From positions 62,001 to 126,000 of the forward strand of contig NW_017264194.1 in the NCBI RefSeq assembly GCF_001619985.1: a DNA stretch of 64,000 nt, in the 5' to 3' direction. The notes under the pieces are model-generated. The model was not told the origin of the DNA. It ran no database searches and saw only the letters and a program-made list of their open reading frames with translations. Source of the stretch: Xylona heveae TC161 (Eukaryota; Ascomycota; Xylonomycetes; Xylonales; Xylonaceae). This document shows, in pieces, positions 2,451-13,941 of the stretch (the stretch's first letter is position 1; each line of letters opens with the position of its first letter). A program made the translations under genes and the position numbers.

Positions 2451-2778
2451 ATGTGCGACTACACTCAGGTTGAGTACCAATGCGGGCATGTACGATACAC
2501 TGTCCGAGCTTGGTGCGTCAAATATCAGCAGACGCAGAAGCGCTGCCCTCCCAATGTCGTTGCCATGTGAGTTGATGCGATAAGCTCGCTGTTGCTGTTT
2601 GTGTAAGAGACTGTTCACTAATACCTATCGCCAGAGAATACCGGATCCATGAGCAGTGTGGTTAGTCCCCGTTCTTTCGATTACGGTTACACCAGCTGTC
2701 TAAAATTTATTCTGACCATCTATTTCCTGTGCAGGTGACTGCCGTTCTCGACAGCGCGTTCCTCTATACTCTAAATGA
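2451..2778 (+). CDS. 61-aa cysteine-rich microprotein (three exons)
   Basis: Exons 2451-2566, 2635-2660 and 2735-2778 join in frame to 61 codons, ending in TGA. Introns are 68 and 74 nt with donors GTGAGT and GTTAGT and acceptors CCAG and GCAG. The protein begins MCDYTQVEYQCGHVRYTVRA and has Cys at residues 2, 11, 22, 32, 47 and 50. There is a CGH motif at 11-13 and a C-x2-C pair at 47-50, spacing that would suit a small zinc-binding fold. There is no signal peptide or membrane segment. I recall similar tiny fungal proteins with a Y-x-CGH-x-RYTVRAWC core and believe they are conserved in Pezizomycotina, but know no function. Every exon is too short to stand out as an open frame, so gene callers could miss it. 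It is convergent with erg27. Confidence rests on clean phase at both introns and on recalled family likeness. Confidence 0.8.
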
Positions 2779-3675: not shown

Positions 3676-5252
3676 TCACGCATCTGTCGGCTTGACTGAC
3701 GCCAGTCGCTTCTCCCAGTCAAGTCGGAGATCTTCCATTTCCTTCCAGCAGCTACGGCCGAGATCCTCAAACTCTTGCCTCATCTCCGGCGTCAGATCCT
3801 TGGCACCGCGGCGCCGTCCTTTGATGCGCTCAGGACCCAAACCGCTGACTTCGCCTGGGACTCCGCCGTAGCCCCAGCCATCTACGTCCGTGCGGCTGAC
3901 GCGCTCGCGGCCAAACGCATCCGTGGCTGTGCCCCATTTCCCGGGTCCGTCATTGTGCTCCATATTGTCAAGACGCTCCTGAGGGGCCAGCGCAAGCCAT
4001 ACCATTGCGCATGCAGCAGTGTACGACTTGACCGTGTGCCACGGTGAGCCAAGCCAGCGCGACATGTAGAAGACGCCGGTCATGCATAGCCAGAGGATAT
4101 ACGGGAGGGGGAAGATGGCAGTTGCGACGATGCCGGGATGGCTGACATACATTCTTGGCCGAGAGTGGGTAGCTTCGTTCGAGACGTCGTCATTGTCGGG
4201 TTGTATCGATTTGGAGGAGCGTTCGGGCTTGGAATCGAGATACTGATCGACCCACGTTGCGGTACAAGGAAGAGTAGATGTCAGGGAAAGCACATCTGTT
4301 AATCGCTTCGACGTCTCGTAGGGCATGAGCGAGCGCATGCCTTGAATGTCGTCCGCCTGGAGAGTGTGTCCGTAGGCTTCAAGACTTGACACCCAGATGA
4401 TTCGGCCTGGATGGGGCAGCAACGGAGCCTTGAGCAGCGGCAAGAGGTTATGGCAGAGCAAGTAATGCCCAAACACGTTGGAGCAGAATACTTCTCCTAG
4501 CTGCGGTTCAGCAGCGCCCGTCTCAATCGGCTTTTTGCCTTGTTCTGTCCTGCCACTCGCCGTGGAGGGCAACTGCGGTTTCGTCACCCATCCGTATCCT
4601 GACACCTTGTACGTCGGCCACGTTGTTGCCTGGACCCAGTCTGTGAGGATCGTCCAGGTAGCTTCAAACCAATTGATGCCCGTCCAGCCGCCGAAACCGG
4701 CATTCAAGATGACCCCATCGAGTCGGGGTGTGGTTTCCAAAAGTTTCTTCGAAAGAGCCTGAACGGAAAGAAGAGAGTTCAGATCGAGAATTTCCGACCG
4801 AAATGTCACGCGTGATTCGAGAAGGAATGCGACGCCCTTGAGTGAACCTTCTGCCGAGCGGGTCGTGCGGCGCAAGTGTTTGCTGAGTCGATCAAGAGTG
4901 TCGTTTCCTTTGCGAGCGTCGCGCGTGGTCACGATAATGCAGAGTCGCTCGGATTGCGGCTTCGTAAAGAGGAATTCGTCAATGAGGCGACAGCAGATGG
5001 AGAAGCCGAGACCACTGGTACCGTATTAGTATTAGCAAGGAAAGAGACGGCTGATGCGAGGGGTTGGGAAGGGGCTTTTCGGTGGAAGCGGCAGGGGCAT
5101 GCAAGCTTCATGTGCCCGTGGAAGGCGGTGTTTGACTTGGGGAAAGAAGTCGCGGCATGATGACGTGGTCAATGAATTTACCTGTTGGCTCCTGTGACAA
5201 GGAAGTAAGAGGTCGACAGTGTCGCCTTTTCCTCCTCGTAGTGTTGATCCAT
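3676..5252 (-). CDS. erg27: 3-ketosteroid reductase, Erg27-type short-chain dehydrogenase
   Basis: Exons 5252-5182 and 5014-3676 on the minus strand give 469 aa. The 166-nt intron starts GTAAAT and ends CCAG, and restores the cofactor motif TGANSGLG at residues 20-27. Further Rossmann/SDR signs are LNAGFGG, SNVFGHYLLCHNLLPLL and the catalytic YETSK at about 256-260, with a serine upstream in WVSSLEAYG. After it come SHPGIVATAIFP and a hydrophobic stretch (YILWLCMTGVFYM) typical of this ER-bound enzyme. Erg27 reduces the C3 ketone during C4 demethylation in ergosterol synthesis, using NADPH with Erg25, Erg26 and Erg28. The length exceeds the yeast protein (347 aa), as in other filamentous fungi, mainly by insertions and a charged C-terminus. 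The start at 5252 was chosen because it lies just upstream of the nucleotide-binding strand; an in-frame ATG at 5432 would add 60 unlikely residues. Confidence 0.9.
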
Positions 5253-7225: not shown

Positions 7226-8695
7226 ATGTCCGCTATCAAAACATCCGCGTCTGACGTGACAGTCACCTCTGAATCCTCTTTCATCCGCAGAATTCATTGC
7301 ACAGCTCATCGAGTGATGATCTCCAGCGAACATTTCTGTGATACACCCATGCATACCTGCCTTACGAAAAGCGTCCTACTAGCACTTGACCGACAGAACG
7401 ACAAGCAACTCCTGACAATGCCTTCGAGAGAGGTTCCGAGAAACTCGTTTTCGATTCTTCTGGCTGGTCTTTCTCGCCGTGATCTGACCGATTTAAAGAG
7501 ATTTTCAAGGATGGGCGGTCCTGATCTGACTGACCTGAGAGGACTTTCTCTTCCCGTAGAAAATCGCGAGCTAACCATGCCAGGAAGCTCAAAAAGGGGC
7601 GCCTCGGAGAGCTCTCCGATCCAAAGGAGGCCGAAAAGGATAGGGGCAGCAGAGTCGACCAGGACGGAGGAGACGACAGCGACAGAAACGACCACAGCAA
7701 CCTCATCGACAATATTGGTAGAGATGACGGGCTCGCGGTTGACAATAGAGCCCACGAGGGTCACGGTGAGAGCGAGGCCCTCAAGGAGAACTAAGTCAGC
7801 CAAGTCAGTCAGGTCAGCCACAACGACAAGGGCAAGTATGACTGCGGTATCAGAGGCGAGTACTGCCTATGATACGGACTACCGACAAGCACTCATCGAG
7901 GGAGGAATATACCCCCCCTTTTACTTTAGAGGCGATGATCCACGGAAACAAATGCCGGCCAATTGGGATGATATTAAAGTACGCCTGAAGGTTCGACGCC
8001 CCTCACTCTCAGAGACAAGATTTACAGAGGAGGACTTCGACGACTTCCGGTGTGCTGTTACCGACGCGTCCAAAGAGCGTATGGTAACAACAAAAGTCAT
8101 TCCCAAGATTACTGGTCGCGAGGATGATCGCCTGAATGGAGCTGGGTCTAGATTTTCCAACCTCGACCGACTAACCGATTTAGCTCTTGCTTCTGCGAGC
8201 CCTGACTCGTACTATGGAGCGAGGCCAGAGCAGTTGGACAAACAAGTTCGTGCTCGACTGAGCAAGCTTGTTGTACCAACAACTCAAGCGGATCTTCCGA
8301 TAGTCCCAAACTTCTTTTTGGAAGTGAAGGGCCCAGACGGTTCCGATCGAGTAGCTCTGAACCAAGCTGTATACAATGAGGCTCTAGGGGCAAGAGCTAT
8401 ACATAGTCTTCAGCAGCATGACCGGGAGGACATAGTGTGGGATCGAAAGGCCTACACTATCAGCTGCACGTACGCACGCGAACAGCTGAAGATGTTCACC
8501 GTTCACATACTACCGCCCGAATCGGAAGGGAAACGACCACAATACGTGACGCATTTGCTATGTCAGCTGAATCTGATGCATAGCATTGAGGCATTTCGGG
8601 AGGGTGCATCGATGTATCGCAACGCCAGGGACTGGGCGAAGGAGATACGAGACAAGGCCATCGATGCAGCAAACCAGCGGGTGGACCCACCCTGA
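7226..8695 (+). CDS. DUF7924-like fungal protein (PD-(D/E)XK-like motif)
   Basis: An uninterrupted frame of 489 codons. Residues 1-210 are low complexity, rich in Thr, Ser and Arg, with short repeats (LTDLKRFSRMGGPDLTDLRG at about 86-105). From about 215 a globular domain follows: GIYPPFYF, RPSLSETRFTEEDFDDF, SYYGARPEQLDKQVRARLS, PNFFLEVKGPDGS, NQAVYNEALGARAIHSLQ, YTISCTYAREQLKMFTVH and a final FREGASMYRNARDWAKEIRD. From memory this order matches a family, often many-copied in Pezizomycotina, that InterPro calls DUF7924. The E-x-K in LEVKG (E366, K368) followed by Q-x2-Y resembles a PD-(D/E)XK nuclease core; nuclease activity is inference. The first 64 residues look unlike coding sequence, so the ATG at 7418 (residue 65, context GACAATGC) may be the true start. 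It stands alone in a gene-poor, repeat-bearing region, which suits an accessory gene. Confidence 0.75.
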   Translation: MSAIKTSASDVTVTSESSFIRRIHCTAHRVMISSEHFCDTPMHTCLTKSVLLALDRQNDKQLLTMPSREVPRNSFSILLAGLSRRDLTDLKRFSRMGGPDLTDLRGLSLPVENRELTMPGSSKRGASESSPIQRRPKRIGAAESTRTEETTATETTTATSSTILVEMTGSRLTIEPTRVTVRARPSRRTKSAKSVRSATTTRASMTAVSEASTAYDTDYRQALIEGGIYPPFYFRGDDPRKQMPANWDDIKVRLKVRRPSLSETRFTEEDFDDFRCAVTDASKERMVTTKVIPKITGREDDRLNGAGSRFSNLDRLTDLALASASPDSYYGARPEQLDKQVRARLSKLVVPTTQADLPIVPNFFLEVKGPDGSDRVALNQAVYNEALGARAIHSLQQHDREDIVWDRKAYTISCTYAREQLKMFTVHILPPESEGKRPQYVTHLLCQLNLMHSIEAFREGASMYRNARDWAKEIRDKAIDAANQRVDPP

Positions 8696-9612: not shown

Positions 9613-11190
9613 TTCTCAGGCTGAGCGGCCAGGTTCGAACAACCAATTTCGCACGATATACCTAAAATTTTCGGCATGTCTCTGGGATACTATTTTCGAC
9701 AGTGCTGGACCTTGGTAAGTTTCAGTACCCTGCCATACAAGGACCAACGGACGAGCAGAATGCGCTTTTTAAGTAACTTTTCATTGACCAAAATAGTTAG
9801 AAAAACGATAAATTACTTAATGGGCCGCGCTTGGGTAACATTTACACCAATTCAAAGTTACACGGATGTGCCACAGCAATTGCGCAGGTATTTCGCATCA
9901 AAAGACAAGATTCAATGCTAGTACCCAAGGATTTCTAATGTTCTATGGGATATATATACCAGTCGGCAAGTCTATACACCAACTTCTGCAGTACAGGTTC
10001 TCCTTTTGTGGCGCTCGCTCCCGCAACGGGCACACTTTCTAACAGTCTCAGCTGGATAGTGCCTTCGGATCCGTCTTGTTCTTGGACGACTTGGCATCCC
10101 GTGGATAAGGGGTGGGAGGAGTGTCTCATCACGTGTAAGTCCTTCGAGCCTAACTGGTCGCATCATACCGTCATACGCTCATACGTTGCCGGGTGCCCTC
10201 TAGGCTGCCATTCCATATGAATCTGTGATAAAGTCTTCGGTGCGAACTAATAGCTAGGCAAGATGTAAATTATTGTTCTTCTTATCTAGACCTATAGCGG
10301 ATAACAATTTCATAGGAAATCTACTGTATACATGGATGCCATCTAGGCTAGTAATGGAACCTTCTTCAGAACGCATCTCGAAATCGTCTAGAAGGCGCCC
10401 TTGGTTGATTAAGGAGTTAGGACCTGCTTTACTTAATTATACTGTCGTAATCGAGAACGGGCAATCTTTTTGCTGCACGGACAATCGTCAAGCCACATAT
10501 GTTTATATTTATGGCATTCATCATACATCCAATGATACAGCAATTCGAACCATTTGTAACCTTCTTCTTTTTTTTTTCTTTTCTCCCCTAGAAGCATTGA
10601 AATGTTAGACGAAAACATGCTCACAAGCATATTTGCGACAGAATGGTAACCTGTATTCTTGGAGGATTTGCCGACGACTTTTAGAATCTACCTTACAGGA
10701 TTTGGTAGAGTTAGTAGATTGTCTCATTAAACATTCTATCAAGAGTATTCAACGTCCTTTTAGGGGATAGATCGGAGGGAATTCACTGTCCAATTTGAAG
10801 GTGGTTCGAGGGTCGTGCTCAAGTGACCATAGATGTTACTAACGGGATTTCGACCACTACCTAGGTGTCATCAGTCTACAGCCAGCAATGCACTGACAAA
10901 TTCAACCGCGACAAATACACATTCTCAGCCATTCAAAAATGCGTACCTAAGCGCACCGTCATTGAAGAGGTGGGAGGAAGTAGAGCGAGATAAGTTGAGG
11001 ATGATTTCCTTGTCATTCCTATTTAGGCCAAGCAGCTGTCTAGTAGCAGCCTAATTTGACGGCAGCATTGACAACAGCTTACCCGGCGAGAGCGAGCAAC
11101 TACCTACCTTTCTTGAGCTTGATTTTGAAGCGTTTTGACGGAGGGCACTGGCTCGTCAGAGCTTTCGTCGCTGACTCCAATTTCTAAATT

Positions 11191-13941
11191 ATGGCCAGCT
11201 ACGGATATGGATCGTCTTCAGAATCCTCTGCAGGCGAAGGCGAAGACCTTCTTTTCCCTACGACGGACCCACGCGAAGAAGAGTTCCTCGGACATCGGCG
11301 CAAGCGACGACGAACTGGCCGTGACGCAAAGGAGAGTGCAGCATTAGGTGTCTTTGGTTCCGAAAGTGAGGACGACGATCGGCCAGGTCAGCGATGGAAG
11401 CAAAAGAATTTGCGCGGGCAGGGACTTGGATTCGTGAAGCCTGGTGGTGCCGAAGACAAGGACGACAACGACAACAACAAGAACAACGAGGACGATGAAA
11501 TGGCTTACGAATATGGAGATGATGAAGATGCAGGAGAAGAAGATATAGCATCAAATGGATTGGGATCCGCGCCGAGGGGCCTGGGATGGCAGACACCCGC
11601 GGGCGAAGCACCTTCAGCCTCAACGCCACTCGGCCGAGGATTTGTCCCGTCATCGGCCAAAGAGCCAGTCCTCGATTTCGCACCGCCGGCAGACGAAGAA
11701 GAACAAGTCCCCAAGATAGTTCGACCGTCCTATAGCTCGCCTGCTCCTAGCGGTCGTGGTCGCTCTCGTGGGGATACCTCCGGCCAACCTCCGGCCAACC
11801 CGAATTCTTTCGCTGCTAGAATGATGGCTAAGATGGGTTATAAGGCTGGCCAAGGTTTGGGTGCGCAAGGACAAGGTATCCTGGCGCCAGTTGAGACAAA
11901 GCTACGGCCGCAGGGCGTTGGACTGGGCGCGGTGAGGGAGAAGACTGAGCAGGCCAAGCAGGAAGCGCGAAGGGAAGCCGAGAGGCGAGGAGAGACCTAC
12001 GAAGAATATTCCTCGGAAGAGGAGCGAAAGCAACGCAGGAGACAAAAGAAAGAAGGAAAAGCTAGTGGAAGTGGTACGAGTACACCAGGCGGCGCAAGGG
12101 CGAAGCCAAAAGTCAAATATCGCACTGCTGCGGACATCGAGCAAGCCGCCGAAGGGTTAAATGTGCCAAATGTCCTCAAGTCAATTATTGATGCTACTGG
12201 GACCGAGAAAAAATTATTGACTTCCACATCTGGCTTGATGACGCCTAATGAAAGCTTGCCTGAGACTCAATCAGAAGTTGGGAAAATCGCAGTCAGGGCT
12301 CGCCGGGAGCTGGAGGCTTTTGCCGATGAATGGAACGGTTTGGGCGATCGAAAAAAATACAATGCTCATCAGGAAAGCGAGCTCAGCCGGGAAATTGACG
12401 AGGAGCAGGAGGAGACCCGCGTTGTGAAGGGGATTACTGGAATAGTACAATCCTTACAAGAGCTTGAAATTGAACGACCAAGTGGATTGAACGAACCTCC
12501 CGACCTAAAGGCCCGCTGGGAAGAAGTTGTCACCAAGCTGGAAATTTTAGAGTTTGAGTTTGGGAACGAGATTGACAACTATGGTCTCTCAGAAGTTGCC
12601 GTGGCTGCGGTCCACCCTCTATTCCGCTTGGAAATTGAGCATTGGGATCCACTGGAGAATCCGATGCACTTTGTTTCTCATATACGACGTCTGCGCAAAA
12701 TCTTAGGGGTAAAACCCAACGCCAACGGAGACTCTGTCGCCCTATTAGACGAGAGTTATGCGGTACCACGTCACAGCAAATACACGAGTTTCTATGAGAC
12801 CATGATATATTCGTTATGGCTTCCAAGAATACGCTCAGTCATTACAAATGATTGGGACGTTCACGACCCAACACCCGTAATTTCCCTTCTCGAAGCTTGG
12901 AAGGACATCTTGCCTTCATTCGTATACCACAGCGTCGTTGATCAAATTATTGTCCAGAAGCTGACAGGCGCTGTGAACGACTGGAATCCTCGCGTCAGCC
13001 ACAAGAAACGACGACACGCGCATCCTCCCCACGTTTGGCTCTTTCCGTGGCTTCAATACCTAGATGAGGATCACGTCGATCCGCGGAGCTCCACTGGATT
13101 GTTGGCTAATGTTAAGCGGAAGTTCCGTGTTGTTCTCGACACATGGGACTTGTCCAAGGGCGTCGTGGATGGCCTTCAAAATTGGCGTGAAGTTCTCCGT
13201 GGGGAATTGGACCACGTTCTCGTTCGGCATCTTCTTCCTCGCTTGGCACTTCTTCTCCAGACAAGTCTCGAAATTGATCCCTCTGATCAAGACTTGACCG
13301 CACTCGAGCTGGTTCTTGCTTGGAACGATTTCTTTAAGCCAAGTGTGATGGGTCAGCTCCTCATTAGCGAATTCTTCCCGAAATGGCACAATATTTTGCA
13401 TCTTTGGCTGACCTCAGAGCCTAATTACGAGGAAGTGGGTCAGTGGTTCTCATGGTGGAAGGGCCGTTTCCCGGAAGAGATCAACGGCGTCAAGGCTGTG
13501 GCTGCTGAGTGGGAAAAGGGCTTGGAGATGATGAATCACGCTCTGGATCTTGGTGAGCGTGCTCGCGATGAGTTGCCTGCCCCAAGTGCGGGGCCTGCCC
13601 GTCCGATTCGCGAGCCAGAGGCCGTCCCTGCTCCTGCACAAGCAGCAAGAGAAGCCAGACCGTCTGGTGCCACTGCCCCGGCCGGTGCGGAGGAGGCTAC
13701 TTTCCGTGATGTGGTCGAGGCTTGGTGTACCGAAGAAAATCTGCTTATGATGCCGCTTCGTGAGGCGCACGAACAGACTGGTCTACCTCTCTTCCGCATC
13801 ACCGCCAGTGCCAATGGCAAGGGAGGCGTACTGGTCTATCTCAAGGGTGACGTAGTCTGGGCTCAAAACAAGAAAAACCGGAGTTTATGGGAACCTGCTG
13901 GCTTGGAAGAGGCTTTGGTGGAAAGAGCGGAAGGTAAATAA
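11191..13941 (+). CDS. Ntr1/Spp382 (TFIP11-like) G-patch spliceosome disassembly factor
   Basis: Single exon of 916 aa from ATG 11191 to TAA 13939-13941. The N-terminus (MASYGYGSSSESSAGEGEDL) is acidic and matches the TIP_N type region of tuftelin-interacting proteins. A G-patch lies at about 205-250 (MMAKMGYKAGQGLGAQGQGI), followed by a highly charged Arg/Lys/Glu segment at about 250-300. From about 380 to 790 runs a large Trp-rich GCFC-type helical domain (HPLFRLEIEHWDPLENPMHF, EFFPKWHNILHLWLTSEPNY, WFSWWKGRFPEEI), then a Pro/Ala linker and a conserved C-terminal piece (FRDVVEAWCTEENLLMMPLR). The family uses its G-patch to activate the DEAH helicase Prp43 and release the intron-lariat spliceosome in the nucleus. 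Yeast Spp382 is about 708 aa; filamentous and animal orthologues are longer, so this length is normal. The start is supported by the conserved N-terminus. Confidence 0.93.
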   Translation: MASYGYGSSSESSAGEGEDLLFPTTDPREEEFLGHRRKRRRTGRDAKESAALGVFGSESEDDDRPGQRWKQKNLRGQGLGFVKPGGAEDKDDNDNNKNNEDDEMAYEYGDDEDAGEEDIASNGLGSAPRGLGWQTPAGEAPSASTPLGRGFVPSSAKEPVLDFAPPADEEEQVPKIVRPSYSSPAPSGRGRSRGDTSGQPPANPNSFAARMMAKMGYKAGQGLGAQGQGILAPVETKLRPQGVGLGAVREKTEQAKQEARREAERRGETYEEYSSEEERKQRRRQKKEGKASGSGTSTPGGARAKPKVKYRTAADIEQAAEGLNVPNVLKSIIDATGTEKKLLTSTSGLMTPNESLPETQSEVGKIAVRARRELEAFADEWNGLGDRKKYNAHQESELSREIDEEQEETRVVKGITGIVQSLQELEIERPSGLNEPPDLKARWEEVVTKLEILEFEFGNEIDNYGLSEVAVAAVHPLFRLEIEHWDPLENPMHFVSHIRRLRKILGVKPNANGDSVALLDESYAVPRHSKYTSFYETMIYSLWLPRIRSVITNDWDVHDPTPVISLLEAWKDILPSFVYHSVVDQIIVQKLTGAVNDWNPRVSHKKRRHAHPPHVWLFPWLQYLDEDHVDPRSSTGLLANVKRKFRVVLDTWDLSKGVVDGLQNWREVLRGELDHVLVRHLLPRLALLLQTSLEIDPSDQDLTALELVLAWNDFFKPSVMGQLLISEFFPKWHNILHLWLTSEPNYEEVGQWFSWWKGRFPEEINGVKAVAAEWEKGLEMMNHALDLGERARDELPAPSAGPARPIREPEAVPAPAQAAREARPSGATAPAGAEEATFRDVVEAWCTEENLLMMPLREAHEQTGLPLFRITASANGKGGVLVYLKGDVVWAQNKKNRSLWEPAGLEEALVERAEGK

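Follow-up and report, generated by a model that had tools for sequence, protein, structure and literature searches.

Whether three short stretches of DNA, none of which stands out individually, together make a gene is the question raised by positions 2451 to 2778 of the window, the 64,000-nucleotide stretch of the Xylona heveae TC161 genome that was analyzed here (C2:62001-126000). The original prediction joined the three stretches in phase into a cysteine-rich protein of 61 amino acids. By DNA search, the 61-aa gene occupies a single place in the genome (24.3 Mb, 17 contigs), and its parts are as follows.

Exon 1: 2451..2566, + strand, 116 nt, residues 1 to 38 and two bases of codon 39
Intron 1: 2567..2634, + strand, 68 nt, GTGAGT donor, CTAAT branch-like site, CAG acceptor
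Exon 2: 2635..2660, + strand, 26 nt, completing codon 39 and running through the opening base of codon 48, with C47
Intron 2: 2661..2734, + strand, 74 nt, GTTAGT donor, CTGAC branch-like site, CAG acceptor
Exon 3: 2735..2778, + strand, 44 nt including the stop, with C50, a basic tail and TGA at 2776-2778

The exons do join in phase, and the joined protein of 61 aa has cysteines at 2, 11, 22, 32, 47 and 50 and the C11-G12-H13 motif, all as predicted. Exon 1 alone carries C2, C11-G-H13, C22 and C32. GTGAGT and GTTAGT donors, a CTRAY site and a CAG acceptor belong to the known fungal splice consensus, and the CTAAT and CTGAC sites start 17 nt and 23 nt upstream of the ends of their respective introns. 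The frame of exon 1 is open upstream to 2361 (2361-2570, + strand) and has no in-frame ATG in that extension, which makes the ATG at 2451 its first.

How much the exons prove by themselves is another matter. From the ATG at 2451, models with zero to two GT-AG introns number 804 and encode 773 distinct proteins. Moreover, the joined frame does not look coding by its codon usage (log-odds of -11.2 over 61 codons), and an out-of-frame ATG lies five bases upstream, at 2446. The latter opens a 45-aa frame (2446-2583) that overlaps exon 1 and, in a transcript beginning before 2446, could serve as an upstream frame overlapping that of the gene. The abundance of models, the codon usage and the upstream ATG could be taken to mean that the locus is a gene copy in decay, or a set of GT-AG pieces joined by chance, and yields no stable translation product. 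We consider that explanation highly improbable, however, as the predicted spliced product matches an independent, intronless locus of the same genome without gaps and with its cysteines in register. The three-exon model is accepted because of that match, since the exons by themselves prove little.

L003: C1:1898311, + strand, frame open without introns

The alignment between L003 and the spliced protein runs gapless over 53 to 54 residues from Met 1, the aligned Met of L003 being where its likeness to exon 1 begins, and it crosses both splice junctions. All six cysteines and CGHV are kept in register with identical spacing, such that the two proteins have the plan MC-x8-CG-x9-C-x9-C-x14-C-x2-C in common. 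Thus, at least one homologue that keeps the six cysteines exists within the genome itself. L003 encodes 70 aa from the aligned Met or 81 aa from another in-frame ATG farther upstream, and either may be its true start. A search of the one genome with the 61-aa query found L003 at an E value of 0.007, and the reverse search with L003 found exon 1 at 0.02. The raw score of 78 corresponds, by a hand estimate for 24 Mb, to a modest whole-genome E value of roughly 0.1. In separate runs, none of 20,000, none of 10,000 and none of 5,000 full shuffles attained the score, counts that are not genome-wide probabilities because the pair came from a search. When only the non-Cys residues were shuffled, the score was likewise attained in 0 of 2,000 trials, and thus the likeness to L003 extends past the cysteines. 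We regard L003 as a firm relative on the strength of this alignment. Roughly 5 kb from it, a minus-strand frame (L010:3426-4406; C1:1903426-1904406) matches the Pfam "Luciferase domain" PF17648 with 83 bits.

If the gene is real, its first intron might still be placed differently. An intron at 2517-2584 would yield another protein of 61 aa that has the six cysteines and one more at position 28, and this alternative scores slightly higher against L003 than the model with the intron at 2567-2634 (86 versus 78). The order reverses against a second relative, L013 (41 versus 48), and the contested stretch has a codon log-odds of -6.4 under the alternative versus +0.8 under the accepted model. Moreover, the alternative intron has a GTCAAA donor and an AAG acceptor and lacks a CTRAY branch-like site. 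Splice signals learned from the genome itself came from sets of 7 and 26 junctions and were noisy. In the 26-junction set, the acceptor was most often AAG (9.8 of 26, with CAG at 4.2), and the donors GTGAGT, GTTAGT and GTCAAA counted 2.0, 0.5 and 0, respectively. Donor enrichment placed GTCAAA 14th, GTGAGT 19th and GTTAGT 167th of 256, which is uninformative or slightly adverse. The splice argument therefore rests on the general fungal consensus, and we consider the intron at 2517-2584 extremely unlikely. We conclude from the sequence comparisons that the three-exon gene with introns at 2567-2634 and 2661-2734 is real, was easily overlooked and belongs to an uncharacterized Cys-rich family.

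How large that family is within the genome was explored with further searches, in which three relatives were accepted, namely, L003 and the two loci below.

L013: C8:217664-217993, + strand, 110 aa without introns, its Cys-rich part followed by a charged C-terminal extension
L014: C1:1799272, - strand, 75 aa without introns, with one extra Cys and a shifted middle spacing

Both retain MC-x8-CG and the C-terminal C-x2-C. The cysteines of L013 are spaced 8, 11, 9, 14 and 2 versus 8, 10, 9, 14 and 2 in the 61-aa protein, and CGD replaces CGH, such that the H13 ligand is absent while other histidines lie nearby. In L014, MC-x8-CGH-x8-C and the closing C-x2-C are retained and the middle differs. 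The two were found solely by invented, family-like composite queries (E values of 0.155 for L013 and 0.047 for L014); where a composite contained a member's own letters, a low E value for that member carries no meaning. Neither was listed in searches of the genome with the 61-aa protein or with L003, and neither, when used as a query against its own genome, found another locus at an E value of 10 or less. Full shuffles attained the score of the 61-aa protein with L013 in 8 of 5,000 and 13 of 10,000 trials and with L014 in 11 of 5,000. The corresponding counts per 5,000 were 0 for L003 with L013, 4 for L003 with L014 and 192 for L013 with L014. With the cysteines held fixed, the scores were attained, per 2,000 shuffles, 64 times (61-aa protein and L013), 30 times (61-aa protein and L014), 9 times (L003 and L013), 26 times (L003 and L014) and 156 times (L013 and L014). 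L013 and L014 are, by these comparisons, probable members of the family. A fourth locus, L039, was rejected as an out-of-frame stretch inside a gene that by eye resembles an alpha-amylase. The genome was searched exon by exon and the best candidates were scored, and thus intron-bearing members may be missed.

Aligned with MAFFT, the four accepted members are invariant at M1, C2, C11, G12, C22, C47 and C50, and three of the four, including the 61-aa protein, have CGH at 11 to 13. The 61-aa protein displays the Met-Cys start, C-x8-C-G, a Cys near 22-23 and the C-terminal C-x2-C by which the family was delimited; because the family was defined from the same four members, these features are a description rather than an independent test.

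How rare such an arrangement of cysteines is can be gauged from a loose six-Cys pattern that was drawn from these proteins and allowed 720 spacing combinations and up to two strict introns. The pattern matched three times in 290 kb on both strands (580 kb strand-bases), and as two of the three matches lay in stretches fetched for holding relatives, the count serves to gauge rarity and is no independent discovery. The locus of L014 falls outside these 290 kb. In first-order random sequence, one match occurred in 34.8 Mb strand-bases, a rate at which approximately 1.4 loose matches are expected by chance per 24 Mb genome. The exact six-Cys spacing should be far rarer than the loose form. A run limited to 80 codons per unspliced frame gave no matches in six random copies and missed L013.

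Whether the protein has been described under another name was asked of several collections. In Pfam-A, no model reached its cut-off with the 61-aa protein, and the sole match at an E value of 10 or less was FKRP_N (12.6 bits versus 27). The same library gave no match at cut-off for L003, L013 or L014. Below cut-off, the nearest for any of the four proteins was SelP_N for L014 (17.1 bits versus 23.2; E = 0.0036), and L003 drew Endonuclease_7 while L013 drew WAV3_C and DCAF15_WD40. NCBIfam returned no family for the 61-aa protein at an E value of 10 or less, which says little for a fungus as that library is prokaryotic. A sequence search of the PDB found no match to the 61-aa protein; two PDB matches to L013 (E values of 0.088 and 1.3) were taken as chance. 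Bacterial and archaeal genomes gave 57 and 29 pattern matches, none of which was confirmed as a relative, and no relative was found in the plasmids searched. Among IMG/VR sequences, the L013 query returned 1 stretch and the L003 query 17, none of which was confirmed. An IMG/VR stretch, L007 (25 residues, 48% identity), is a short frame between two opposite-strand genes of a viral contig, has neither the Met-Cys start nor C-x2-C and was set aside as chance. Finally, among the titles listed by literature searches, in a range with few subscription journals, none describes this Cys-rich family.

The surroundings of the gene are the following.

Upstream: - strand, VPS13 N-terminal region
Upstream: + strand, FGGY carbohydrate kinase
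Downstream: 3679-5025, - strand, short-chain dehydrogenase-like frame (Pfam, 20.4 bits, below the cut-off of 26.6)
Downstream: 11188-13938, GCFC/G-patch protein

Nothing seen in this neighborhood points to a function of the 61-aa protein. Farther along the window, a 489-aa frame (7226-8695, + strand) matches DUF7924 with 24.6 bits, below the cut-off of 27. Scans for bacterial promoters and terminators and for tRNAs gave nothing useful.

What the product might do must be read from the protein itself. The 61-aa protein has a net charge of +5 and a mean hydropathy of -0.83. By a crude hydropathy measure, no signal-peptide-like N-terminus is present, the best 12-residue mean being 0.12 among windows starting at residues 1 to 20. 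The product is thus most likely cytosolic or nuclear, in keeping with the intracellular location that had been proposed for it. In L003, residues 17-28 are more hydrophobic (12-residue mean of 1.89). One could instead imagine that the product, very small and with an even number of cysteines (six), forms disulfides and is a small Cys-rich protein that acts outside the cell or is released by an unconventional route. That seems unlikely to us given the N-terminus just described. Moreover, a C-x2-C pair and CGH are more typical of metal sites, and the probable relative L013 bears a charged C-terminal extension.

We think it rather probable, then, that the locus is a real gene of a small Met-Cys family whose product is an intracellular, metal-stabilized microdomain, most likely holding zinc and serving as a basic adaptor. 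CGH combined with C-x2-C suggests a metal site. In the eukaryotic cytosol, ligand sets of this kind usually hold zinc, and zinc binding is thus the likeliest reading. The protein would act inside the cell as a self-contained unit in which, in the arrangement that we favor, C11 and H13 together with C47 and C50 form one four-ligand site. The fourth ligand is uncertain because L013 is without H13 and has other histidines nearby. Seven ligands are too few for two four-ligand sites, and C2, C22 and C32 may make a second, incomplete site or may stay reduced in a structural role. The basic surface might serve as a protein- or nucleic acid-binding adaptor, a role suggested by size and charge alone. 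An AlphaFold model of exon 1 by itself was poor (pLDDT of 62.7) and is too weak to count.

Whether the family reaches beyond one genome bears on its significance. It is possible, though on balance doubtful, that filamentous ascomycetes widely carry an undescribed family of zinc microproteins that work inside the cell, with several ancient paralogues per genome acting as a set of small adaptors. Were this so, small size and tiny exons would often lead annotation pipelines to overlook members. If conserved across filamentous fungi, the family would comprise small genes claimed by no Pfam-A model at cut-off and a clear case for gene finders that seek short multi-exon genes. The relatives within the genome supply a signature that can be tested, MC-x8-CG ... 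C-x9-C-x14-C-x2-C.

How the protein relates to known systems is a matter of ligand spacing. Like the Zn2Cys6 DNA-binding domain, the 61-aa protein has six cysteines in a small basic domain. Zn2Cys6 domains, however, are spaced C-x2-C-x6-C-x5-12-C-x2-C-x6-8-C, whereas the spacing here is 8, 10, 9, 14 and 2, and no Pfam match to Zn2Cys6 was obtained. RING fingers are cross-braces that start with C-x2-C and continue with C-x-H and more C-x2-C pairs, and the 61-aa protein has a single C-x2-C. Metallothioneins have repeated C-x-C or C-C clusters, and the nearest cysteines of the 61-aa protein are that one C-x2-C. Treble-clef and zinc-ribbon domains resemble it in that an early Cys/His pair and a late C-x2-C would form one four-ligand site, and the weak exon 1 model has strands at residues 8-11 and 14-17 and a helix at 18-28. 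The C11-x-H13 pair, however, is not the usual C-x2-C knuckle, and the 61-aa protein has neither a Pfam match at cut-off nor a PDB sequence match. Many similar unnamed proteins probably occur in filamentous fungi, and the 61-aa protein belongs with the small, Cys-rich and probably metal-binding proteins.
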